Source: Clostridiales bacterium (lineage in GTDB: Bacteria > Bacillota > Clostridia > Christensenellales > DTU072). Taken from it: a stretch of 37,026 bases of DNA. The stretch lies in the NCBI GenBank assembly GCA_012800525.1, contig JAAZJD010000040.1, forward strand, positions 1 to 37,026. The letters are read 5' to 3'. Positions 10,064 to 36,864 of this stretch are shown here, in pieces; position 1 is the stretch's first letter; the number at the start of each line of letters is the position of its first letter. Made by a program: the position numbers and the translations under genes. The notes under the pieces were generated by a model. That model searched no databases. It was not told the DNA's origin and worked only from the letters and a program-made list of their open reading frames with translations.

Positions 10064-11809
10064 TCAACGAATTTTTATATGTATTTCCCTCAATTGTTGT
10101 TCTGTTACTTCACTTGGAGCTCCCATCATTGTATCTTGAGCAGATTTATTCATTGGAAAAGCAATAACCTCTCTAATGTTATTTTGGTTAGTTAATAACA
10201 TAATTATTCTATCTATTCCAGGGGCCATACCAGCATGAGGAGGGGCGCCAAATTTAAAAGCAGTATATAGAGATGTAAACTTTGTTTCTAAAATCTCTCT
10301 TGAATAACCTGCAATCTCAAATGCTTTTATCATAGTTTCGACTTCATGGTTTCTAACAGCACCACTAGATAATTCTACTCCATTACATACAATGTCATAT
10401 TGATATGCAAGTATCTCGTCTGGTCTTTTTTCATTTAAAGCTTTTAAACCGCCTTGTGGCATTGAAAAAGGATTATGCGTGAAGGCCCAGTTTCCATTGT
10501 CATCTAATTCGTACATTGGGAAGTCAACGATATAGCAAAATTCAAACTTGCTTTTATCTATTAGATTTAGTTTTTCTCCAAGTTCAGTTCTAATTTGTCC
10601 TGCGTATTTTGAAGCATTTACCTCATCATCTGCTATAAAAAACAATAAATCATTAGCTTTTAAATTCATAATTTCTTTTAATTCAACCTTTTGTTGGTCT
10701 GGGATAAATTTGTCAATAGGTCCTTTATAAGTCATATCATCATTAACTGTTATATACCCAAGTCCTCCCATTCCAATGCTGGTTGCAAACTCTAACATAT
10801 CTGCATGGAATTTTTTAGATAAAGAGGCTCCTTTCTCAACTTTTATTGCTCTAACACAGCTGTTTTGAAATGGTTTAAATGTGCATTTATTGAAAAATTC
10901 AGATAAATCTTTAATTCTTAATGGATTTCTCAAGTCAGGTTTATCACTACCAAAATTTAGCATTGCTTCTGCATATGTAAATCGCTTAAATGGTGGTTTA
11001 GACACTTCAAGTGTGCTAAATGTTTTAAATGTGTCATATAAAACTTCTTCTGCTAAAGTTAAAACATCTTCTTGAGTAGCAAAAGACATTTCAAAATCCA
11101 ATTGGTAAAATTCGCCAGGAGCTCTATCAGCTCTAGCATCCTCATCTCTAAAGCATGGGGCTATTTGAAAATATCTATCAAAACCGCTTACCATTAGGAT
11201 TTGTTTAAATATTTGTGGTGCTTGTGGAAGAGCATAAAACTTGCCTTTATGCTTTCTACTTGGCACTAGGTAATCTCTTGCACCCTCAGGTGAGGATGCT
11301 GTTAGTATAGGGGTTGTGATTTCTGTAAATCCATTTTTTTGCATTAAAGCTCTTAGATGAGAGATAATTTTAGAGCGTAAAATAATGCGATCATGTAAGG
11401 CTTTTCCCCTAAGATCTAAATATCTATACTTTAACCTAAGTTCTTCTCTTATCTCTTCATTAGAGTTTACTTCAAAGGGCAGTTGCTCTATGACATCGCC
11501 TAAAACTTTTATGTCTTTTGCGACAAGTTCGACGGTGCCTGTGGCTATTTTTTCATTAAATGTTGTTTTGTCGCGCATCCTAATTTGGCCTGAAATACTA
11601 ACGGTTTGTTCTTTTTTGATGCCATTAAGCATTGAAGCGGACTCAAAAACAATTTGTAGTGTTCCAAAATGATCTCTAAGATCTAAAAAAGAAATTCCAC
11701 CATGATCTCTAATTGTATCTACCCATCCTGCAACTCGAATAGAGTTGCCGACTAAATTTTCATTTATCATCGAAGTATTGTGGCTTCTATAAATATTTTC
11801 CTTTAACAT
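10064..11809 (-). CDS. aspS: Aspartyl-tRNA synthetase, likely non-discriminating
   Basis: This is a bacterial-type class II AspRS of 581 aa with an OB-fold anticodon domain (about 1-110), catalytic core, inserted GAD domain (about 285-420) and C-terminal catalytic remainder. Motif 2 is visible around 211-240 (RYFQIAPCFRDEDARADR), and motif 3 is GAPPHAGMAPGIDRIIMLL near the end. The anticodon-domain loop reads RDHGG with His36. As I recall the literature, His at this site is typical of non-discriminating AspRS (Pseudomonas aeruginosa and Helicobacter pylori types), while E. coli AspRS has Leu. With gatCAB directly downstream, charging of both tRNA(Asp) and tRNA(Asn) is a reasonable inference. 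GAGGA lies 5 nt before the ATG, and a good promoter lies upstream. Confidence 0.95.
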   Translation of the reverse strand: MLKENIYRSHNTSMINENLVGNSIRVAGWVDTIRDHGGISFLDLRDHFGTLQIVFESASMLNGIKKEQTVSISGQIRMRDKTTFNEKIATGTVELVAKDIKVLGDVIEQLPFEVNSNEEIREELRLKYRYLDLRGKALHDRIILRSKIISHLRALMQKNGFTEITTPILTASSPEGARDYLVPSRKHKGKFYALPQAPQIFKQILMVSGFDRYFQIAPCFRDEDARADRAPGEFYQLDFEMSFATQEDVLTLAEEVLYDTFKTFSTLEVSKPPFKRFTYAEAMLNFGSDKPDLRNPLRIKDLSEFFNKCTFKPFQNSCVRAIKVEKGASLSKKFHADMLEFATSIGMGGLGYITVNDDMTYKGPIDKFIPDQQKVELKEIMNLKANDLLFFIADDEVNASKYAGQIRTELGEKLNLIDKSKFEFCYIVDFPMYELDDNGNWAFTHNPFSMPQGGLKALNEKRPDEILAYQYDIVCNGVELSSGAVRNHEVETMIKAFEIAGYSREILETKFTSLYTAFKFGAPPHAGMAPGIDRIIMLLTNQNNIREVIAFPMNKSAQDTMMGAPSEVTEQQLREIHIKIR

Positions 11810-24510: not shown

Positions 24511-24540
24511 TTGACATATATAACTATTATGTTTTAGAAT
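24511..24540 (+). promoter_or_regulatory. Promoter of the BCAA operon
   Basis: Consensus TTGACA (24511-24516), an 18-bp spacer and TAGAAT (24535-24540). The predicted start is near 24547, about 23 nt before the leader-peptide start codon. Confidence 0.75.
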
Positions 24541-24569
24541 AAATAAAAGCAGCAAAAGGAGCAAAGATC

Positions 24570-24653
24570 GTGAGAAGATTTGTCCAAAAAAGAAATGTGT
24601 TACTTCTTATAGTGATAATTATTCTCGTCGTTATAGGTATAGCGGGGTGTTAA
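24570..24653 (+). CDS. BCAA leader peptide (27 aa), attenuator control
   Basis: This short ORF starts with GTG. It has a strong AAAAGGAG ribosome site (24554-24561) at 8-nt spacing and lies just downstream of a consensus promoter. It begins MRRFVQKRN. Residues 10-22 (codons 24597-24635) are then 13 consecutive Val, Leu or Ile residues, followed by GIAGC and TAA. In all, 15 of the 27 residues are branched-chain. I infer that it is the sensor of a transcription attenuator: ribosomes starved for Leu, Ile or Val tRNA would stall in the run. Its last codons (24642-24651) can pair with the 5' arm of the following terminator. The peptide could instead be read as a tiny membrane or lipoprotein-like peptide, since IAGC resembles a lipobox. 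The position and RNA pairing favour a regulatory role. Confidence 0.8.
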   Translation: MRRFVQKRNVLLLIVIIILVVIGIAGC

Positions 24654-24713
24654 TTTTGGTGCAAAGCAAGACAATATTCAATAGGAAATAATAATCAAAA
24701 TCAAATACCTCGC
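24642..24713 (+). promoter_or_regulatory. Antiterminator pairing in the ilv leader
   Basis: GCGGGGTGTT (24642-24651, the last leader codons) is complementary over 10 contiguous bp, including two G-U pairs, to AATACCTCGC (24704-24713). That segment is the 5' arm of the terminator. The two foldings are mutually exclusive. A ribosome at the leader stop codon would mask 24642-24651 and let the terminator form. Confidence 0.7.
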
Positions 24714-24734
24714 AAAATACGACGAGGTATTTTT
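24703..24734 (+). terminator. Attenuator terminator before ilvN
   Basis: A perfect 10-bp stem is formed by AAATACCTCG (24703-24712) and CGAGGTATTT (24723-24732), with a 10-nt loop and a T-run ending at 24734. It lies between the leader peptide and ilvN (ATG 24755), inside the operon leader. It is therefore a conditional rather than an operon-ending terminator. Confidence 0.85.
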
Positions 24735-24754
24735 CAATAAAAGGGAGATGCCAA

Positions 24755-26285
<1,531 letters not shown>

Positions 26286-26415: not shown

Positions 26416-27963
26416 ATGAAATTGGTAAAAATATTAGATACGACACTAAGAGATGGTGAACAATCACCAGGTTGCAGTATGAATATTAGCGAAAAGATTA
26501 ATTTGGCAAAACAAATTGATAAGCTTGGAGTTGATATTATTGAGGCAGGTTTTGCCATAGCTTCCCCTGGCGATTTTACGGCAGTTTCAGAAATTGCAAA
26601 AGTAGTAGAAAATGCATCAGTATCATCTTTGGCAAGAGCGGTGGAAAAAGATATAGACGCTGCATATGATGCTGTTAAATATGCAAAAAAGCCACGTATT
26701 CATGTATTTTTAGCAACTTCAGAAATACATATGAAATATAAGCTAAAAATGACAAGAGAACAAGTTTTAGAACGTGCAGCAAAAGCAGTTGCTTACGCAA
26801 AATCCAAGTGTGATGATATTGAGTTTTCTGCAGAAGATGCGTCTAGAACTGATAGGGAATTTTTAGTTCAAGTTTATGAAGCAGTAATTAAAGCAGGTGC
26901 AACTGCAATAAATGTGCCAGATACCGTTGGTTATTCAACCCCAGAAGAAATGTATGATCTAATTAAATATTTACATGAAAATGTTAAAGGGATTGAAAAT
27001 GTAAATGTTTCGGTACATTGTCATAATGATTTAGGCCTTGGAGTTGCAAATTCTCTTGCTTCAATGCAAGCTGGAGCAAATATCATAGAATGTACTATCA
27101 ATGGAATTGGCGAACGTGCGGGTAATGCGGCATTGGAAGAAATTGTAATGGCATTACATACTAGAAAAGACAAGTATAATGCATATACAAACATTGATAC
27201 GACTGAAATTTATGCAACTTCAAAACTTTTGTCTAAAATTACTGGTATAAAAGTTCAACCTAATAAAGCAATTGTTGGTGATAATGCATTTGCCCATGAA
27301 TCAGGAGTGCATCAACATGGTGTTTTAGCAAATAGAGAAACGTATGAAATTATGTCTCCAGAAACGATTGGATTGAAATCAAACAAACTTGTTTTAGGGA
27401 AACATTCAGGAAAGCATGCTTTAAGGGATAGAATAAAAGAATTTGGTTATATAGTAGATGAAGAAGAGTTAGAAAAGATTTTTGTAGAATTTAAAAAACT
27501 TGCAGATAGACTAAAGCTTGTTTCTGATGCAGATATAGAAGCTTTGTTATATCAAAATAGAGCTACTGAAATTCCAGAAGAATTTAAATTAGATTATTAT
27601 TTAGTTTATGTTGGAAACACAGTCACATCTGTTTCAAGTGTCAAAGTAACAAACTCAAAAGGTGAGTCTAAAGAAACAACTGCAATGTCTAAATTTGGAC
27701 CTATCGATGCTTCATATAAAGCAATATCTGAAGTGGTTGGTGAACAGTTTGATTTAGTGGACTTTAAAATAGAAGCTATTACTGGTGGCACTGATGCTCA
27801 AGGAGTTGTAACTCTAAAACTTAATAGCAATGGCAAAACATTTAATGGTCATGGTGTCGGTGTTGATATCATTGAAGCCGCTATCACTGCATATATAGTA
27901 GCAATTAACAATATTTTCTATGATAGAAAATTAACTCAAAAGACTATGGAAGAAAACAAATAA
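26416..27963 (+). CDS. leuA: 2-isopropylmalate synthase
   Basis: LeuA condenses acetyl-CoA with 2-ketoisovalerate, the first leucine-specific step. The 515-aa protein has the DRE-TIM barrel with LDTTLRDGEQSPG (7-19), the metal-binding HCHNDLGLGVANS motif, and VGDNAFAHESGVHQHGV. A C-terminal regulatory domain (about 390-510, with GGTDAQGVVTLKL) is the site of leucine feedback in the family. An AGAAGG ribosome site precedes the ATG. It lies 130 bp after ilvC, behind a hairpin, and 34 bp before cimA. Having leuA and cimA as adjacent paralogues is informative: leuA has the IPMS-type EQSPG motif and cimA has AQGEG. Confidence 0.95.
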   Translation: MKLVKILDTTLRDGEQSPGCSMNISEKINLAKQIDKLGVDIIEAGFAIASPGDFTAVSEIAKVVENASVSSLARAVEKDIDAAYDAVKYAKKPRIHVFLATSEIHMKYKLKMTREQVLERAAKAVAYAKSKCDDIEFSAEDASRTDREFLVQVYEAVIKAGATAINVPDTVGYSTPEEMYDLIKYLHENVKGIENVNVSVHCHNDLGLGVANSLASMQAGANIIECTINGIGERAGNAALEEIVMALHTRKDKYNAYTNIDTTEIYATSKLLSKITGIKVQPNKAIVGDNAFAHESGVHQHGVLANRETYEIMSPETIGLKSNKLVLGKHSGKHALRDRIKEFGYIVDEEELEKIFVEFKKLADRLKLVSDADIEALLYQNRATEIPEEFKLDYYLVYVGNTVTSVSSVKVTNSKGESKETTAMSKFGPIDASYKAISEVVGEQFDLVDFKIEAITGGTDAQGVVTLKLNSNGKTFNGHGVGVDIIEAAITAYIVAINNIFYDRKLTQKTMEENK

Positions 27964-27997: not shown

Positions 27998-29584
27998 ATG
28001 AAAAAGATAACATATTTAGATTCGACATTAAGAGATGGAGCTCAAGGTGAAGGTATAAGCTTTTCAACTCAAGATAAGCTCAATATTGTTAAGCTATTAG
28101 ACGAGTTAAAAATAGATTATATCGAAGCAGGTAATCCCTTTTCAAATCCAAAAGATATGGAGTTTTTTGAAAAACTTGCTGATGTTAAACTTAGTCATTC
28201 TAAAATAGCTGCCTTTGGTTCGACAAGAAGAAAAAATATAAAAGCTGAAGATGATGCAAATTTGAAAGCTTTAGTTTCTTGTGGTGCAGATATACTTGTG
28301 ATTTTTGGAAAAAGCTGGGATCTTCATGTGACGGACGTTTTAAATACAACATATGAAGAAAACTTAAATATGATTTTTGATACAGTAAGCTTTTTGAAGA
28401 AAAATGGTAAAAAAGTCATATATGATGCAGAGCATTTTTTTGATGGATATAAAAACAATAATAAATATGCTTTAGAAACATTGAAGATGGCTCATAAAGC
28501 TGGTGCAGATCATCTTTGTTTATGTGACACTAATGGTGGAAGTTTAACTTTAGAAATCATAGAAATCATGGAAGTTGTAAAAAAGGAATTACCAGATGCT
28601 AAAATTGGAATTCATACCCATAATGATAGTGAAATGGCAGTGGCAAATTCAGTTGTTGCAGTTCAACATGGAGCAACAATGGTGCAAGGAACTTTGCTAG
28701 GAATTGGCGAACGTTGTGGCAATGCAAACTTGCTTGCCATAATACCCACTTTGCAAATCAAACTAGGATATAAAGGTATTCCTACTGAGGCTTTAGAGTC
28801 ATTGACAACATTTGCAATTAAAGCTGCAGAAATTATGAATATAACTATACCAAATGGTATGGCATATGTTGGTAAATCTGCTTTTGCACATAAAGCTGGA
28901 ATGCACATTGATGGTGTAACTAAACTTTCTTCTAGCTTTGAGCATATTAATCCTGAAAAAGTTGGAAATAATAGAAGATTTTTAATGAGTGAAGTTGCAG
29001 GACGTAGCACTTTAATCAAAGCAATTCAAAAAGTTGATAAAAATATTAAACGTACAGATGCAATAACCGATGAAGTCATTAAATTGATAAAAGAAAAAGA
29101 ACACAGGGGCTATCAGTATGAAGGTGCAGATGCTAGTTTAGAACTTTTAATTAGAAAAAAACTAGGTTTGTATAAATCATATTTTGAATTGGTTACTTTT
29201 AGAACCATAACTGAGCAACACACTAAAGGCGGATATTTCCCTGCAACTGCAATTGTTAGAATTAAAGTTGATGACACCATTGAGCTATCAGTAGGTGATG
29301 GCCAAGGTCCAGTTGACGCTTTAGATAAGGCACTTAGAAAAGCACTTGAAAAGTTTTATCCAAATTTGAAAAACTTTAAGTTAACAGACTATAAAGTTCG
29401 AATTTTAGATTCGGAAAAAGCATCTTCTGCTACGACAAGGGTAATAATAGAATCAAGAGATGAAAAAAATATCTTTACGACAGTTGGTGTCTCAGATGAC
29501 ATAATTGAAGCTAGTTTTAAAGCATTAGTTGATGCAATAGAATATAAATTGCTTCTTGATGAAAATAATGGATTAAAAAAATAA
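27998..29584 (+). CDS. cimA: (R)-citramalate synthase
   Basis: CimA condenses pyruvate with acetyl-CoA to (R)-citramalate, giving 2-ketobutyrate for isoleucine without threonine deaminase. The 528-aa protein is a leuA paralogue of the CimA subgroup. The active-site motif is LDSTLRDGAQGEGISFS (7-23), followed by IHTHNDSEMAVANS and YVGKSAFAHKAGMHIDGV. The C-terminal allosteric domain (about 400-520) contains VGDGQGPVDALDKALRKAL. AAAGGT lies ahead of the ATG. Its place between leuA and leuCDB fits the pathway, because LeuCD and LeuB also act on citramalate-derived intermediates. No ilvA is present in this window. Homocitrate synthase is a less likely alternative given the context. Confidence 0.92.
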   Translation: MKKITYLDSTLRDGAQGEGISFSTQDKLNIVKLLDELKIDYIEAGNPFSNPKDMEFFEKLADVKLSHSKIAAFGSTRRKNIKAEDDANLKALVSCGADILVIFGKSWDLHVTDVLNTTYEENLNMIFDTVSFLKKNGKKVIYDAEHFFDGYKNNNKYALETLKMAHKAGADHLCLCDTNGGSLTLEIIEIMEVVKKELPDAKIGIHTHNDSEMAVANSVVAVQHGATMVQGTLLGIGERCGNANLLAIIPTLQIKLGYKGIPTEALESLTTFAIKAAEIMNITIPNGMAYVGKSAFAHKAGMHIDGVTKLSSSFEHINPEKVGNNRRFLMSEVAGRSTLIKAIQKVDKNIKRTDAITDEVIKLIKEKEHRGYQYEGADASLELLIRKKLGLYKSYFELVTFRTITEQHTKGGYFPATAIVRIKVDDTIELSVGDGQGPVDALDKALRKALEKFYPNLKNFKLTDYKVRILDSEKASSATTRVIIESRDEKNIFTTVGVSDDIIEASFKALVDAIEYKLLLDENNGLKK

Positions 29585-29628: not shown

Positions 29629-30888
29629 ATGGGAATGACAATGACACAAAAAATTCTAGCAAATGCTGCTGGATTAGACAAAGTTGAAGCAGGTCAATTA
29701 ATAATGGCAAAATTAGATTTGGTATTAGGTAACGATGTAACCACTCCTGTTGCAGTACCAGAATTTAATAAGATTGGCAAAGATGTTTTTGACAAAACTA
29801 AGATTGCAATTGTGCCAGATCACTTTACACCAAACAAAGATATTAAAACTGCAGAACAATGTAAGCTTATTAGAGAGTTTGCTATTGATCACAAAATAAA
29901 AAATTATTTTGAAATTGGTGAAGTTGGCATTGAGCATGTGCTTTTGCCGGAAAAAGGTTTGGTTGTGGCTGGTGATGTTGTGATTGGAGCAGACTCACAT
30001 ACTTGTACATATGGAGCTTTAGGGGCTTTTTCAACTGGGGTTGGAAGTACAGATATGGCTGCTGGAATGGCTACAGGGAAAGCTTGGTTTAAAGTTCCAG
30101 AGGCAATAGGATTTGAATTAACGGGTAAATTTTCAAGTGAATATGTATGTGGAAAAGATTTGATTTTACATATTATAGGCATGATTGGTGTAGATGGTGC
30201 TTTATATAAAAGTATGGAATTTTTTGGTCCTGGAGTTAAAAATCTTTCTATGGATGATAGATTTACAGTTGCAAATATGGCAATAGAAGCAGGTGGAAAA
30301 AATGGGATTTTCCCAGTAGATGAAAAAACAATTGCATATATGAAAGAGCATTCCACAAAAGAGTACAAAATTTTTGAAGCTGATAAAGATGCAAAGTATG
30401 AAAAGATTTACAAAATTGATTTAGCTACAATTAGACCGACTGTTGCATTTCCACATCTTCCAGAAAATACTAAAACAATAGATGAGGTTAAATCTATAAA
30501 AATTGATCAAGTTGTAATTGGTTCATGTACAAATGGAAGAATGGAAGACTTAAGAATGGCAGCTAAGATTTTAGATGGAAGAAAAGTGAAAAAAGGAATT
30601 AGAACTATCATAATTCCAGGAACACAAAAGATCTATTTGCAAGCAATAAAAGAAGGTCTAGTTGAAATATTTATTAATGCAGGTGCAATTTTTTCTATGC
30701 CAACATGCGGACCATGCTTAGGTGGACATATGGGAATTTTAGCAGCGGGGGAAAGAGCTGTTTCAACCACAAATAGAAATTTTGTAGGTAGAATGGGACA
30801 TCCAAAATCAGAAGTATATTTGGCATCTCCAGCAGTTGCAGCAGCTTCAGCGATTATGGGTGAAATATATAATCCTGAAAAATTATAA
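29629..30888 (+). CDS. leuC: 3-isopropylmalate dehydratase large subunit
   Basis: LeuC carries the [4Fe-4S] cluster of isopropylmalate isomerase and, with LeuD, converts 2- to 3-isopropylmalate; in the CimA route it also isomerises citramalate. The 419-aa length matches the shorter clostridial/archaeal (HacA-like) form. Cluster cysteines are Cys300 in IGSCTNG and Cys360 and Cys363 in [30 protein letters not shown] (120-140) is the family signature. An AGGAG ribosome site lies 9 nt before the ATG. It is followed by leuD after 47 bp. Confidence 0.95.
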
Positions 30889-30935: not shown

Positions 30936-31427
30936 ATGAAAGCAGAAGGAAGAGTTTTTAAATATGGTGATAATGTTGATACAGATGTAATTATTCCAGC
31001 AAGGTACTTAAATACATCAAGTCCTGATGAACTTGCAGCACATTGCATGGAAGATATAGACAAAGATTTTATCAATAAAGTTCAAAAGGGCGATATTATT
31101 GTAGCAGACAAAAACTTTGGATGTGGTTCATCTAGAGAGCATGCTCCGATAGCGATTAAAGCAGCTGGAGTTTCTTGTGTTATTGCTTCAACATTTGCAA
31201 GAATTTTTTATAGAAATTCTATTAACATTGGCCTACCTATATTAGAATGTGAAGAAGCGGTCAAAAACATTAAAACTGGTGATATTGTCAGTGTTGATTT
31301 TAAAGAAGGCAAAATAACAAATAAAACAACTGGAAAAGTATTTTATGCACAAGGTTATCCAGAGTTTATGCAAAAGTTAATTGCTGGCGGTGGTTTGGTA
31401 GAAAGTATTAAGAAAAACACGATATAG
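30936..31427 (+). CDS. leuD: 3-isopropylmalate dehydratase small subunit
   Basis: LeuD is the swivelling small subunit that pairs with LeuC. The 163-aa protein has [19 protein letters not shown] near the start and the conserved [19 protein letters not shown] loop (about 60-78), which forms part of the substrate-binding site. AGAGGT lies ahead of the ATG. The length is that of the stand-alone small subunit, shorter than the roughly 200-aa enterobacterial form, matching the short LeuC. It is 26 bp before leuB. Confidence 0.95.
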
Positions 31428-31453: not shown

Positions 31454-32521
31454 ATGAATAAAAAGAATATTGTTGTAATTGAAGGTGATGGAATAGGTCC
31501 AGATATTGTAGCAGAATCAATTAAAGTATTAAGAAAAATAGAAGAAATTTCAGATGTTAAATTTGAGTTTTCTTATTATGAAGCAGGTGGAGTTGCCATT
31601 GATAAATATGGTCATCCACTTCCTGAAAAAACACTTGAGGCTTGCAAAAAAGCTGATGCTGTAATACTTGGAGCAGTAGGTGGTCCTAAGTGGGATAATT
31701 TAGCTGGCGATCAAAGACCAGAAAAAGCCTTGCTTGGTTTAAGAGGTGGTCTTGGTTTGTATGCAAATTTGCGTCCAGCTATTTTGCATAGGCAATTAAA
31801 AGATGCTTGTCCACTAAAAGATGAAATTATTGGCGATAGCCTTGATATAATGATTGTTAGAGAATTAACCAGTGGAATATATTTTGGCGAAAGAGGCAGA
31901 AATAAAGCTGATAAAAGTGCATATGACACAATGTACTATAACGAAGAAGAAATTGAGAGAATATTAAAGGTCGGGTTTGAAATTTCTTTATCAAGAAATA
32001 AAAAGGTTTGTGTTGTTGATAAAGCTAATATATTAGAGTCATCAAGACTTTGGAGAGAAGTTACTCAAAGAGTTGCAAAAAATTATCCAGAAGTTGAATG
32101 TAACTTTTTATATGTTGATAATGCGGCTATGCAACTTATTAGAAATCCAAAACAATTTGATGTAATTATTACAGAAAATATGTTTGGCGATATTTTATCT
32201 GATGAGGCAAGTATGTTGACAGGATCAATAGGAATGCTTCCTTCAGCATCACTTGGTGGAAAAAATGCACTTTATGAGCCAATACATGGAAGTGCTCCAG
32301 ATATTGCAGGTCAAAATAAAGCAAATCCTATTGCGACAATCTTATCAATAGCTATGATGTTAAGACATTCATTCGGTATGGAAAATGAAGCTCAAAAAGT
32401 TGAGAAAGCAGTTGATGCAGCTTTAACAGCAGGTTATCGTACAGGAGATATATTTAGCAAAGGAATGAAGCTAGTTGGCACAAAAGAAATGGGAGATATA
32501 ATTGCAAATTATATTAAATAA
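31454..32521 (+). CDS. leuB: 3-isopropylmalate dehydrogenase
   Basis: LeuB oxidatively decarboxylates 3-isopropylmalate to 2-ketoisocaproate with NAD+. In a citramalate pathway it also handles 3-methylmalate on the way to 2-ketobutyrate. The 355-aa protein shows [18 protein letters not shown], the substrate-binding arginines around [16 protein letters not shown] and [15 protein letters not shown], the metal-binding [18 protein letters not shown], and [22 protein letters not shown] ribosome site lies upstream. It is of normal length and is followed by ilvE after 47 bp. Confidence 0.96.
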
Positions 32522-32568
32522 AACCATATAAATTTTAAAAATTTGAGCGAATGCTCGAGGAGGAAATT

Positions 32569-33450
32569 ATGAGTTATATATTTATCGATGGCAAATTCTA
32601 TGAAAAAGAAAATGCGAAAATTTCAGTTTTTGATCATGGTCTTCTATATGGAGATGGTGTTTTTGAAGGTATAAGAGCATACAGTGGTCATGTTTTTAAA
32701 TTAAAAGAGCATATTGATAGACTATTTGATGCAGCAAGAGCAATTGATTTAAAAATTCCATATTCAAAAGAAGAAATTATGGACATTGTATGCAAATCGT
32801 GTGCAAAAAATGATATTAAAAATGGATATATAAGATTAGTCGTTACTAGAGGAGTAGGCGATCTTGGTTTATCTCCAACGAACTGTAAAGGAGCAAGCCT
32901 TATTTGTATTGCAGCAAATGTGAAACTATATTCCACAGAAATGTATGAAAAAGGACTTAAGGTTGCTACAGCTTCACAAAGAAGGGCACATGGTGCTATT
33001 TTAGATCCTCAAATTAAATCACTTAACTATCTAAATAATATTATGGCTAAAATGGAAGCAAATAGACAAAACTGTGGTGAAGCTATAATGTTAAATTCGG
33101 AAGGTTGGGTATGTGAGTGTACAGGAGATAATATTTTTATCATTAAAAATAACGTGATATATACTCCGCCAACATATATGGGTTTACTTGCAGGAGTTAC
33201 GAGAAATGTGGTTATTGAAATTGCCACAAAGCTTGGATATGTTGTAAAAGAAGTTCCATTTACACTATTTAATGTCTATTCAGCAGATGAATGTTTCCTA
33301 ACAGGAACAGCTGCAGAACTTATTTCTGTATCTGAAGCTGATGGAAGAACAATCGGTGCTGGGGTTACTGGCCCAGTTACTAAAAAATTGTTGGCTGCTT
33401 TTCGTGAGTATGCAAATGATCCAAAAAATGGAATGCCAATAAAATATTAA
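32569..33450 (+). CDS. ilvE: Branched-chain amino acid aminotransferase
   Basis: This PLP-dependent class IV aminotransferase carries out the last step to Leu, Ile and Val. The frame opens at 32551, but GAGGAGG lies about 5 nt before ATG 32569, giving 293 aa and the family-typical MSYIFIDGKFYEKENAKISV. Further signatures are FDHGLLYGDGVFEGIRAY (21-38), the PLP-binding Lys150 in QIKSLNYLNNI, and CTGDNIFII. It belongs to the shorter archaeal/clostridial branch rather than the 360-aa eukaryotic-like type. D-amino acid transaminase is the nearest alternative, but the EGIRAY motif and the operon context favour IlvE. Confidence 0.93.
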   Translation: MSYIFIDGKFYEKENAKISVFDHGLLYGDGVFEGIRAYSGHVFKLKEHIDRLFDAARAIDLKIPYSKEEIMDIVCKSCAKNDIKNGYIRLVVTRGVGDLGLSPTNCKGASLICIAANVKLYSTEMYEKGLKVATASQRRAHGAILDPQIKSLNYLNNIMAKMEANRQNCGEAIMLNSEGWVCECTGDNIFIIKNNVIYTPPTYMGLLAGVTRNVVIEIATKLGYVVKEVPFTLFNVYSADECFLTGTAAELISVSEADGRTIGAGVTGPVTKKLLAAFREYANDPKNGMPIKY

Positions 33451-33516: not shown

Positions 33517-35172
33517 ATGTATAAGAGTTCACAAGTTACACAAGGAGTGGATAGAGCTCCCCATAGGTCGTTATTTAAAGCATTGGGATGGTCTGATAGC
33601 CAATTTAACAAGCCAATTATTGGAATAGTGAGTGCTCAAAGTGATATTGTTCCTGGACATATGCATATAAATTCACTAGTAGCTGCAGTAAAAGAAGGTA
33701 TTATTTCTGCTGGCGGAAATGCCGTGGTTATACCCTCTATTGGCGTGTGTGATGGGATTGCAATGAATCATGAAGGGATGAAATATTCTTTAGTTACAAG
33801 AGAAATTATTGCAGATTCTGTAGAATGTATGGCAAAGGCACATGCTTTAGATGCATTAGTTTTAATCCCAAATTGTGACAAAATAGTGCCAGGAATGGTT
33901 ATGGGTGCAGCAAGAGTAAATATCCCCTCTATTGTTATTAGTGGTGGGGCAATGCTTGCAGGAAAAGTTGGAGAAAAACGCATAAGTTTGACCGATATGT
34001 TTGAAGCTGTGGGAGCTTGCGCAGTTGGTAAAATGGATCAAGAAACACTAGATGAATATGAAAATGAAGCATGTCCTACATGTGGATCTTGCTCTGGTAT
34101 GTTTACAGCAAATAGTATGAACTGTGTTGTGGAAGCTTTAGGGCTTGCATTACCAGGAAATGGAACTATTCCAGCGGTATTTTCTGAAAGAATAAGACTT
34201 GCTAGAAAAGCTGGTGAACAGATCATATATTTACTTAAAAATGATATAAAGCCAAGTGATATTTTAACTAAGGAAGCTTTTAAAAATTCTTTAACAGTAG
34301 ATATGGCATTATCTTGTTCAACAAATACCTTGCTTCATGTCTTAGCAATTGCAAATGAAGTTAATTTAAAAATTGATGGGCAAATGATAAACGAAATCAG
34401 CAGTAATACACCTAACTTTTGTAAATTAGCACCTGCTGGCAGACATTTTATTTCAGATTTATATTATGCTGGTGGCGTTCAAGCTGTTATGAATGAACTT
34501 TTAAAATTGGGAAAACTAAATGGTAAGTTAATTACAGTAACAGGAAAGACTGTTGCAGAAAATGTCAAGAATGCAAAAGTAAAAGATGAAAATGTAATTC
34601 GATCAAAAAATCCATACTCAAGTACTGGCGGTTTAGCAGTATTATTTGGCAATTTAGCACCAGAAGGATGTGTTGTAAAAAGATCTGCTGTAAGTCCAAA
34701 TATGCTAGTAAACAAAGGAAAAGCAAAAGTTTATGACAGTGAAGAAGATGCTATTAAAGCCATAATGTCAGGTAAAATTAAAAGTGGAGACATCGTTGTG
34801 ATTCGCTATGAAGGCCCTAAAGGGGGTCCAGGAATGCGCGAAATGTTATCCCCAACTGCAACTATTGCAGGTATGGGCTTAGATAATAGTGTTGCTTTAA
34901 TTACAGACGGGAGATTTTCAGGAGCAACTAGAGGAGCAAGCATTGGACATGTTTCTCCAGAAGCAGCTGACGGTGGCCCAATAGCATTTGTAAAAGATGG
35001 AGATATTATTGAAATAGATATGCATAAATATACAATAAGCTTATTAGTTTCAAATGAAGAATTGGCAAAAAGAAAAAAAGAATATAAGCCAGTTGAGAAA
35101 AAGCTTAGTGGGTACTTAAATAGATATGCAAGATGCGTATCATCGGCATCAGAAGGTGCAATTTTAAAATAA
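33517..35172 (+). CDS. ilvD: Dihydroxyacid dehydratase
   Basis: IlvD dehydrates dihydroxyacids to the 2-keto acid precursors of valine and isoleucine. The 551-aa protein has [35 protein letters not shown] (Cys120) and [17 protein letters not shown] (Cys192). The N-terminal segment reads [10 protein letters not shown] (41-50), as in the E. coli-type [4Fe-4S] enzyme. The third cysteine (NPCN) found in air-stable [2Fe-2S] dehydratases is absent. I therefore infer an oxygen-sensitive [4Fe-4S] enzyme, consistent with an anaerobe. AGAGGT lies ahead of the ATG. It lies 66 bp after ilvE and 18 bp before ilvB. Confidence 0.96.
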
Positions 35173-35190
35173 ATATACAAGGGAAATATT

Positions 35191-36864
35191 ATGAAAGATA
35201 AAAAAATAATTAAGAATGGTGCTGAGATTGTAATTAGTGTTTTAATAGAGCAAGGAGTTACAGAGATTTTTGGATATCCTGGTGGAACTATCCTAAATGT
35301 ATATGATGAGTTATATAAAAATCAGGATAAAATAAAACATTATCTTACCGCACATGAACAAGCTGCAACTCATGCAGCAGATGCTTATGCAAGGGTTACG
35401 GGTAAAGTGGGTGTTTGTTTTGCGACAAGCGGACCTGGAGCAACAAATTTAGTTACTGGTATAGCTAATGCATATATGGATTCAATTCCTATTGTTGCTA
35501 TTACTTGTAATGTTGCAAAGTCATTACTAGGTAAAGATAGTTTTCAAGAAGTTGATATTGCAGGTATTACTATGCCAATAACAAAACATAATTATATAGT
35601 TGGAAACATAGAAGAGTTAGCTGATGTTTTAAGAGAAGCTTTTTACATTGCTAAAGAGGGTAGACCAGGACCTGTTTTAATAGACATACCAAAAAATATT
35701 ACAGTTGAAGAAACAGAGTTTATTGAAAAAACTCCAGAAGAATATATTCCAAGTATGGAAAGTTCAAAAGAAGACATTGAAAAAGTTGCAGAAAAAATAA
35801 ATAAAGCTAAAAACATTTTCATTCTAGCAGGGGGTGGAGTTATTACCGCAAATGCATCAAATGAGCTTAGAGAATTGGTAAATAAACTTGATGCTCCTGT
35901 AGCTTTAACTCTTATGGCACAAGGAGCTGTCAGCTCATATGATCCGCATTTTACTGGAATGATTGGTATGCATGGGACTAAATCAAGCAATCTAGGATTA
36001 AAAGCAAGTGATATGTTAATAGCCATTGGAACAAGATTTAGTGATAGAGTTTTAACATCTGCTTCTCAATTTATTAAAAAGATTTCAGTCATTCATATAG
36101 ATATTGATTCAGCTGAAATAAATAAAAATATAGGCTCTAATTATCAATTAATTGGAGATGCTAAAGTGGTGTTAAAAAATCTACTACCTCTAATAAAAGA
36201 AAGAAAAAACCCAGAATTTTTAGAAACTGTGCATGGTTTTTCAAGAGGGGACAAAGTAGATCGCACACAAATGACTCCTTACAATATTATTTCTCACATT
36301 AGTGATATGACTAAAGGTGATGCTATTATTACAACTGAAGTTGGACAACATCAAATGTGGGCAGCAAGATATTATAGATACACTAAGCCTAGAACTTTGA
36401 TTACATCTGGTGGGCTTGGAACAATGGGCTTTGGAACGGGAGCAAGTATAGGAAGTCAAGTAGCAGCAAAAGATAAAAAGGTCATTGCAATAGCAGGAGA
36501 TGGGAGCTTTAGAATGAATAGTACTGAACTTGCAACGATATCTTATTATAACTTGCCTATTATTATAGTCATACTTAACAATAAAACGCTTGGTATGGTA
36601 AGACAATGGCAAACACTATTTTATGAAAAACGCTATTCTCAAACAAACCTAGATAGAGGACCAGATTTTGTTAAATTAGCTGATGCTTACAATATTGATG
36701 GTTATAGAGCAAATACATTAGAAGAATTCAAATCTGTTTTTGATAAAGCTTTAGCAAAAGGTGTTCCAACACTAATAGATGCGAATATAAATATTGATGA
36801 GTGCGTTTATCCAATGGTAGAGGCTGGAAAATCCATAGACAAGATGATTACGAGTTTAACATAA
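35191..36864 (+). CDS. ilvB: Acetolactate synthase large (catalytic) subunit
   Basis: IlvB is the TPP-, FAD- and Mg-dependent enzyme that makes acetolactate and acetohydroxybutyrate. The 557-aa protein has EIFGYPGGTILNVYDEL (25-41), the catalytic Glu56 in AHEQAATHAADAYAR, the central FAD-domain region (about 195-340), and the TPP motif GDGSFRMNSTELATI through ILNN (436-464). LGMVRQWQ follows. Its Trp473 matches the tryptophan linked to preference for 2-ketobutyrate in anabolic AHAS, so this is a biosynthetic enzyme rather than the catabolic AlsS. AAGGGA lies ahead of the ATG. It is the last gene of the operon, far from its regulatory partner ilvN. Confidence 0.96.
   Translation: MKDKKIIKNGAEIVISVLIEQGVTEIFGYPGGTILNVYDELYKNQDKIKHYLTAHEQAATHAADAYARVTGKVGVCFATSGPGATNLVTGIANAYMDSIPIVAITCNVAKSLLGKDSFQEVDIAGITMPITKHNYIVGNIEELADVLREAFYIAKEGRPGPVLIDIPKNITVEETEFIEKTPEEYIPSMESSKEDIEKVAEKINKAKNIFILAGGGVITANASNELRELVNKLDAPVALTLMAQGAVSSYDPHFTGMIGMHGTKSSNLGLKASDMLIAIGTRFSDRVLTSASQFIKKISVIHIDIDSAEINKNIGSNYQLIGDAKVVLKNLLPLIKERKNPEFLETVHGFSRGDKVDRTQMTPYNIISHISDMTKGDAIITTEVGQHQMWAARYYRYTKPRTLITSGGLGTMGFGTGASIGSQVAAKDKKVIAIAGDGSFRMNSTELATISYYNLPIIIVILNNKTLGMVRQWQTLFYEKRYSQTNLDRGPDFVKLADAYNIDGYRANTLEEFKSVFDKALAKGVPTLIDANINIDECVYPMVEAGKSIDKMITSLT

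Follow-up and report, generated by a model that had tools for sequence, protein, structure and literature searches.

The region 24511-24754 is, with high probability, a ribosome-mediated transcription attenuator of an ilv-leu operon, a reading based on codon content and modeled RNA folds. It lies in a 37-kb stretch of clostridial DNA (the window; GC 32%), part of a 1.78-Mb genome (G000) that is ~95% complete. Directly 3' of the leader are ten genes for branched-chain amino acid (BCAA) synthesis in the order ilvN-ilvC-leuA-cimA-leuC-leuD-leuB-ilvE-ilvD-ilvB. A preliminary description of this DNA had proposed a leader-peptide attenuator before a ten-gene BCAA operon. Each of the ten genes was identified with NCBIfam, and attenuation is supported by the codon run, an exclusive helix, a folding switch and the leaders of relatives.

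Leader layout and the predicted switch

The elements first described at the 5' end of the region, a TTGACA-18-TAGAAT promoter and a GTG-started ORF of 27 codons with a well-spaced Shine-Dalgarno sequence, are all present (Table 1), and the promoter is the best-scoring site of the region in a consensus scan. The leader stop codon is separated from the terminator hairpin by a 49-nt spacer and from the ilvN start by 101 nt, whereas the terminator ends 20 nt 5' of ilvN. The promoter consensus scan found no promoter-like site between the terminator and ilvN; on this evidence, transcription can reach the operon only by passing the terminator.

Table 1. Positions of the leader elements, the operon genes and the tandem leaders of three other loci. 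Coordinates are those of the window unless given relative to ilvB.
Feature	Position	Strand	Remarks
Sigma-70-type promoter TTGACA-18-TAGAAT	24511..24540	+	Candidate; 11/12 consensus matches, consensus match only
Shine-Dalgarno AAAAGGAG of leader ORF	24554..24561	+	8 nt 5' of GTG (24570); read directly
Leader peptide ORF VRRFVQKRNVLLLIVIIILVVIGIAGC	24570..24653	+	27 codons, GTG start, TAA stop 24651-24653
Regulatory run, codons 10-22	24597..24635	+	Unbroken stretch of 13 Val/Leu/Ile codons, rare CTC and GTC among them
CTCGTCG	24624..24630	+	Predicted pairing with CGACGAG 24720-24726 in terminator; can reinforce antitermination
Antiterminator 5' strand	24642..24660	+	Spans leader stop codon
Antiterminator 3' strand	24694..24713	+	Last 10-11 bases double as terminator 5' arm
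Intrinsic terminator AAATACCTCG-N10-CGAGGTATTT then TT	24703..24734	+	Stem 24703-24732; overlapping U tract 24730-24734
Shine-Dalgarno AAAGGGAG of ilvN	24740..24747	+	Read directly
ilvN/ilvH, acetolactate synthase small subunit	24755..25303	+	NCBIfam
ilvC, ketol-acid reductoisomerase	25281..26285	+	NCBIfam
leuA, 2-isopropylmalate synthase	26416..27963	+	NCBIfam
cimA, citramalate synthase	27998..29584	+	NCBIfam
leuC, 3-isopropylmalate dehydratase large subunit	29629..30888	+	NCBIfam
leuD, 3-isopropylmalate dehydratase small subunit	30936..31427	+	NCBIfam
leuB, 3-isopropylmalate dehydrogenase	31454..32521	+	NCBIfam
ilvE, branched-chain aminotransferase	32551..33450	+	NCBIfam
ilvD, dihydroxy-acid dehydratase	33517..35172	+	NCBIfam
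ilvB, acetolactate synthase large subunit	35191..36864	+	NCBIfam
L133 tandem leaders	-395..-296 and -189..-90		Relative to ilvB start
L143 tandem leaders	-433..-298 and -232..-88		Relative to ilvB start
L144 tandem leaders	-401..-302 and -188..-89		Relative to ilvB start

Codons 10-22 all encode Val, Leu or Ile, as had been noticed at the outset. This unbroken 13-codon run is unique in the window, and 60 dinucleotide-shuffled versions of it, read in six frames, contained none as long. In the genes of the window, CTC accounts for 1.7% of the Leu codons and GTC for 8.6% of the Val codons, so both are uncommon, as first described. Both may have been kept because CTCGTCG (24624-24630) can pair with CGACGAG (24720-24726).

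The peptide could instead be a functional small membrane protein that happens to precede the operon, with the hairpin acting as a plain terminator, and its charged N-terminal VRRFVQKR segment followed by a hydrophobic stretch does resemble a single transmembrane segment. However, the longest Val/Leu/Ile run in the 530,184 amino acids of long reading frames (window and fetched loci) is 12, so that a pure run of 13 is absent from them. Peptides at the like place in relatives are BCAA-rich yet share little sequence, and the end of the leader pairs specifically with the terminator arm. A plain terminator with no later promoter-like site would also shut the operon off. We regard a membrane protein as very unlikely and favor attenuation.

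The terminator stem (24703-24732) has a predicted stability of -11.5 kcal/mol against -1.0 +/- 2.0 for shuffled sequences, with none of 200 as good, in agreement with the intrinsic terminator first placed before ilvN. Its U tract is short and partly taken up by the stem. Mutually exclusive with the terminator is an antiterminator helix in which 24642-24651 pairs with 24704-24713 and 24653-24660 with 24694-24701, at about -17.0 kcal/mol compared with -11.8 kcal/mol for the terminator. The preliminary description had reported this exclusion correctly but gave the helix 10 bp; it extends to 18 bp, and the ten pairs originally listed include two G-U pairs. Its picture of a compact attenuator likewise holds for the two states, but 'one alternative pairing' is too simple, as the CTCGTCG:CGACGAG pairing and a local hairpin are also predicted. 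In that hairpin (24645-24679, approximately -6.6 kcal/mol) the antiterminator 5' strand can first fold with the bases just 3' of it, possibly forming a pause site or a protector hairpin.

The effect of a ribosome on the leader was modeled by folding the RNA left free codon by codon, at equilibrium and in silico, on the assumption that RNA is free from 12 nt past the first A-site base. The antiterminator is favored (probability 0.85-0.97) while the A site is at codons 1-21, and the terminator (0.96) once it is at codons 22-28. The predicted fate therefore flips between codons 21 and 22, which is the end of the BCAA run; with 9 or 15 nt instead of 12, the border is expected to shift by one codon. 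Folding of both states, proposed in the preliminary description, thus yields a clean switch, from ~0.97 for the antiterminator to 0.96 for the terminator. When 24624-24702 was shuffled and the terminator kept, the mean terminator probability was 0.90, and 3 of 1000 shuffles were as low as the real sequence. With no ribosome in the model, terminator and antiterminator states differ little in energy (-39.5 and -39.2, respectively), so that super-attenuation of the classical kind is not a clear prediction.

In the proposed mechanism, transcription would start near 24547 and a ribosome would follow, translating the leader ORF. Scarcity of charged Val-, Leu- or Ile-tRNA would stall this ribosome in codons 10-21, leaving the RNA from 24642 free. 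Pairing of 24642-24660 with 24694-24713 would then capture the terminator 5' arm, and RNA polymerase would go on to transcribe all ten genes, from ilvN to ilvB. With charged tRNA plentiful, the ribosome would get to the stop codon (24651-24653) and cover the antiterminator strand, the terminator would form, and transcription would end 20 nt before ilvN.

Alternatively, the leader might work mainly on translation or RNA stability, by coupling or by ribosome protection of the mRNA, with little termination. The short U tract would fit this, as would the ability of the leader Shine-Dalgarno region to pair with the antiterminator strand in the fold. However, the ilvN Shine-Dalgarno sequence lies outside both the terminator and antiterminator structures, the terminator is far beyond chance, and the 101 nt and strong hairpin between the leader stop and the ilvN start argue against direct coupling. 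Such a mode of action is highly improbable beside transcription attenuation.

BCAA leaders before ilvB in related genomes

Related loci were found by contig search with an alignment of relatives; IlvN alone as query found no relative. The relatives belong to genera other than that of the source, and the exact leader was compared with those only. In the family's other genera ilvB is the first gene of the operon, and most of these ilvB-first operons have a BCAA-rich leader and then a terminator before ilvB, e.g., MLASILAVIIIIISVGVIVLLDSAVSHVLPIKL. BCAA-rich leaders with matched antiterminators precede ilvB in ~40 related loci, and a like design is found in many clostridial MAGs and also in Lentisphaerae and Verrucomicrobia. 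Given the divergent leader sequences, matched antiterminators and terminators of the related clostridial genomes, the design appears to be common in this group. This bears out the suggestion of the preliminary description that relatives should carry BCAA-rich leaders of varying sequence.

It had further suggested that the pairing should persist as the sequence changes, and most related leaders do have their own matched helix. For 42 leaders, the gapless helix of the leader's last part was scored with its own and with the others' terminator arms. Matched pairs win, with mean rank fractions of 0.13 and 0.12 compared with 0.5 expected (Wilcoxon p ~1e-8, a statistic that ignores relatedness), and the window's own pairing scores above every one of the 41 mismatches, whether leaders or arms are exchanged. 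Bases have changed on both sides of the helix, as in TGTACTGCC/GGCAGTACA, GGTTTTGCC/GGCAAAACC, GAGTTTTACCG/TGGTAAAACTC and TTAATGCCTA/TAGGCATTAA. Whole-arm RNAduplex energies of the relatives are only moderately significant against shuffles (mean z -1.2), a less clear result than that of the gapless helices. The equilibrium ribosome scan gives a switch in 5 of the 42 leaders; for most relatives it favors the terminator over the antiterminator even when the ribosome is stalled. These leaders would consequently have to work kinetically, and the equilibrium scan is indecisive for them. In the fold model, the leader of the window is unusual among them in that it switches at equilibrium.

Homology of this leader to the ilvB leaders of the family was considered but is not claimed, as nothing aligns save a loosely similar terminator (ACCT.CG.CAAA). 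The ilvB leaders (L051-L061, L111-L119 and others) likewise combine a BCAA-rich peptide, an antiterminator strand at the ORF end and a terminator before the first ilv gene. However, their operons begin with ilvB rather than ilvN, the distance from stop to terminator is ~25 nt rather than 50, and their IlvC belongs to a different clade. Many of their peptides also have Leu-Pro near the C terminus, encoding the pairing strand, which is absent from the peptide of the window. This Leu-Pro recurs in many peptides among L051-L057, L072 and L120-L135, and it looks like a peptide motif because its codons (TTTGCC) pair with the GGCAAA of the terminator.

Two further observations concern the Lentisphaerae and Verrucomicrobia. 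Three MAG loci (L133, L143 and L144) have tandem BCAA-rich leader ORFs before ilvB (Table 1), each followed after 23-33 nt by its own terminator of -16 to -24 kcal/mol, and are candidate double attenuators. In addition, the ilvBNCD operons of Lentisphaerae (Oligosphaera and others; L120, L122-L125, L130, L132-L133, L135 and L143-L144, compared with L111-L119) encode an IlvN with ~64-71% identity to the clostridial query, and their leaders are similar in kind. Judging by these similarities, the operon may have passed from one phylum to another along with its attenuator.

Different sensors at orthologous operons

Amino acid operons are classically controlled by T-boxes in Firmicutes and by leader peptides in Proteobacteria. 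In the window no Rfam family reaches its gathering score, and the covariance search for a T-box or riboswitch that had been proposed as a check found no T-box or other Rfam family in the leader. A weak match to PsrR1, on the other strand and below the gathering score, was put down to chance. In G000 we found no T-box (RF00230) even at E 10, with all 52 candidates scored, and no match to CodY; the genome being ~95% complete, missing contigs could hide either one. T-boxes number 0-5 per genome in the family of G000, whereas genomes of the order's other families have as many as 20; the lineage of G000 seems to have lost its T-boxes. As for other leader peptides in G000, a His-codon run was not found and the matches of a Trp search were unspecific.

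Two genomes from another family of the order, G359 and G237, have their genes arranged as in the window from ilvN as far as ilvD, where their contigs end. Their IlvC and LeuC are 76-77% and 77-80% identical to those of the window. An IlvC tree places the window with G359 and G237 (support 100/99) and away from the other members of its family. AspS encoded on the same contig gives a different picture, with 69-72% identity to the nearest own-family sequences and 41-42% to those of G359 and G237. From this disagreement the operon appears to have moved between families. Its GC content (0.33) matches that of its surroundings (0.32), as opposed to 0.62 and 0.50 at the G359 and G237 loci (L211 and L212), so the move appears not to have been recent. 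G000 has two AspS genes that are 42% identical, one in the window (10064-11809, minus strand) next to an amidase-family gene resembling gatA and one elsewhere (G000:C32:56046-57752), which suggests a division between discriminating and non-discriminating AspRS.

Both orthologous operons have a T-box before ilvN. That of G237 scores 96.8 bits, above the gathering score, and that of G359 scores 76.0 bits, below it, with an E of 1.2e-16 and a GGGTGGTAACGCG core. Their specifier, read from the alignment, is probably CUC (Leu). As in the window, control before ilvN is terminator-based, but these T-box leaders sense uncharged tRNA directly, without a leader peptide. These T-boxes, together with those of ilv operons in other families of the order, could point to a T-box or an undescribed riboswitch in the window as well, with the short ORF incidental. 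This is hardly credible, because the only Rfam match is the weak one on the other strand, no candidate in G000 passes even E 10, and the ORF and antiterminator occupy nearly everything between promoter and terminator, with little space for a stem I. With a leader-peptide attenuator preferred for the window, it is conceivable, if on the doubtful side, that a T-box-controlled, ilvN-first BCAA operon moved from one clostridial family into a lineage without T-boxes or CodY, where control passed to a leader-peptide attenuator that has an unusually stable antiterminator and switches at equilibrium.

Within the family of G000 itself, one genome (G035) has a T-box before ilvB in place of a leader peptide (locus L050, 3446-3675), so that sensors are mixed there too. 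Across a single clostridial order, T-box and leader peptide thus stand in for one another, orthologous operons included. In this group, where CodY was not detected, BCAA-specific control appears to rest mainly on leader peptides. Replacement of a T-box by a leader peptide within Firmicutes has been reported for hisS (PMC2965389), so the ilv case extends a known pattern. These loci form a natural set for studying how one RNA sensor replaces another.

Relation to known attenuators

The classical enterobacterial attenuators have a multi-segment design (1:2, 2:3, 3:4), in comparison with which protector pairing is weak or uncertain in the window. The ilvGMEDA, ilvBN and leuABCD attenuators (PMC6123439), although from a different phylum, share with it a leader peptide rich in BCAA codons and mutually exclusive helices. 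Leader-peptide attenuation of BCAA genes has been predicted in Lactococcus, Streptococcus and Corynebacterium, and a review calls such attenuation common in Gram-positives (PMC6123439). The rarity outside enterobacteria implied by the preliminary description is therefore weakened, since Listeria (PMC5864092) and Staphylococcus (PMC5794164) provide tested cases and the design appears common in these Clostridia; the contrast with T-boxes holds at the orthologous operons. The principle of the attenuator is well known, and the less expected part is the different sensor at an orthologous operon. For this clostridial group, we found no report of such leaders in the open-access literature.

The closest tested systems are from Firmicutes. 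Ribosome-mediated attenuation by Rli60, the ilv-leu leader of Listeria monocytogenes, was tested with Shine-Dalgarno, start codon and terminator mutants (PMC5864092). Like the window, Rli60 has a BCAA-rich leader peptide (13 residues) and an antiterminator/terminator pair before an ilv-leu operon, but the first gene is ilvD and CodY acts on top (PMC5864092). Its terminator is the more stable structure (-17.1 versus -10.3 kcal/mol; PMC5864092), whereas in the window it is the antiterminator. The ilvD leader of Staphylococcus aureus, where BCAA attenuation was tested by mutation, also lacks a T-box and encodes a 26-residue peptide with Ile and Leu codons (PMC5794164). S. aureus has CodY (PMC5794164), whereas none was detected in G000. 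The proposed S. aureus antiterminator pairs with the U tract (PMC5794164), whereas that of the window is predicted to pair with the terminator 5' arm. The distance from stop codon to terminator is 52 nt in S. aureus (PMC5794164) and ~50 nt in the window.
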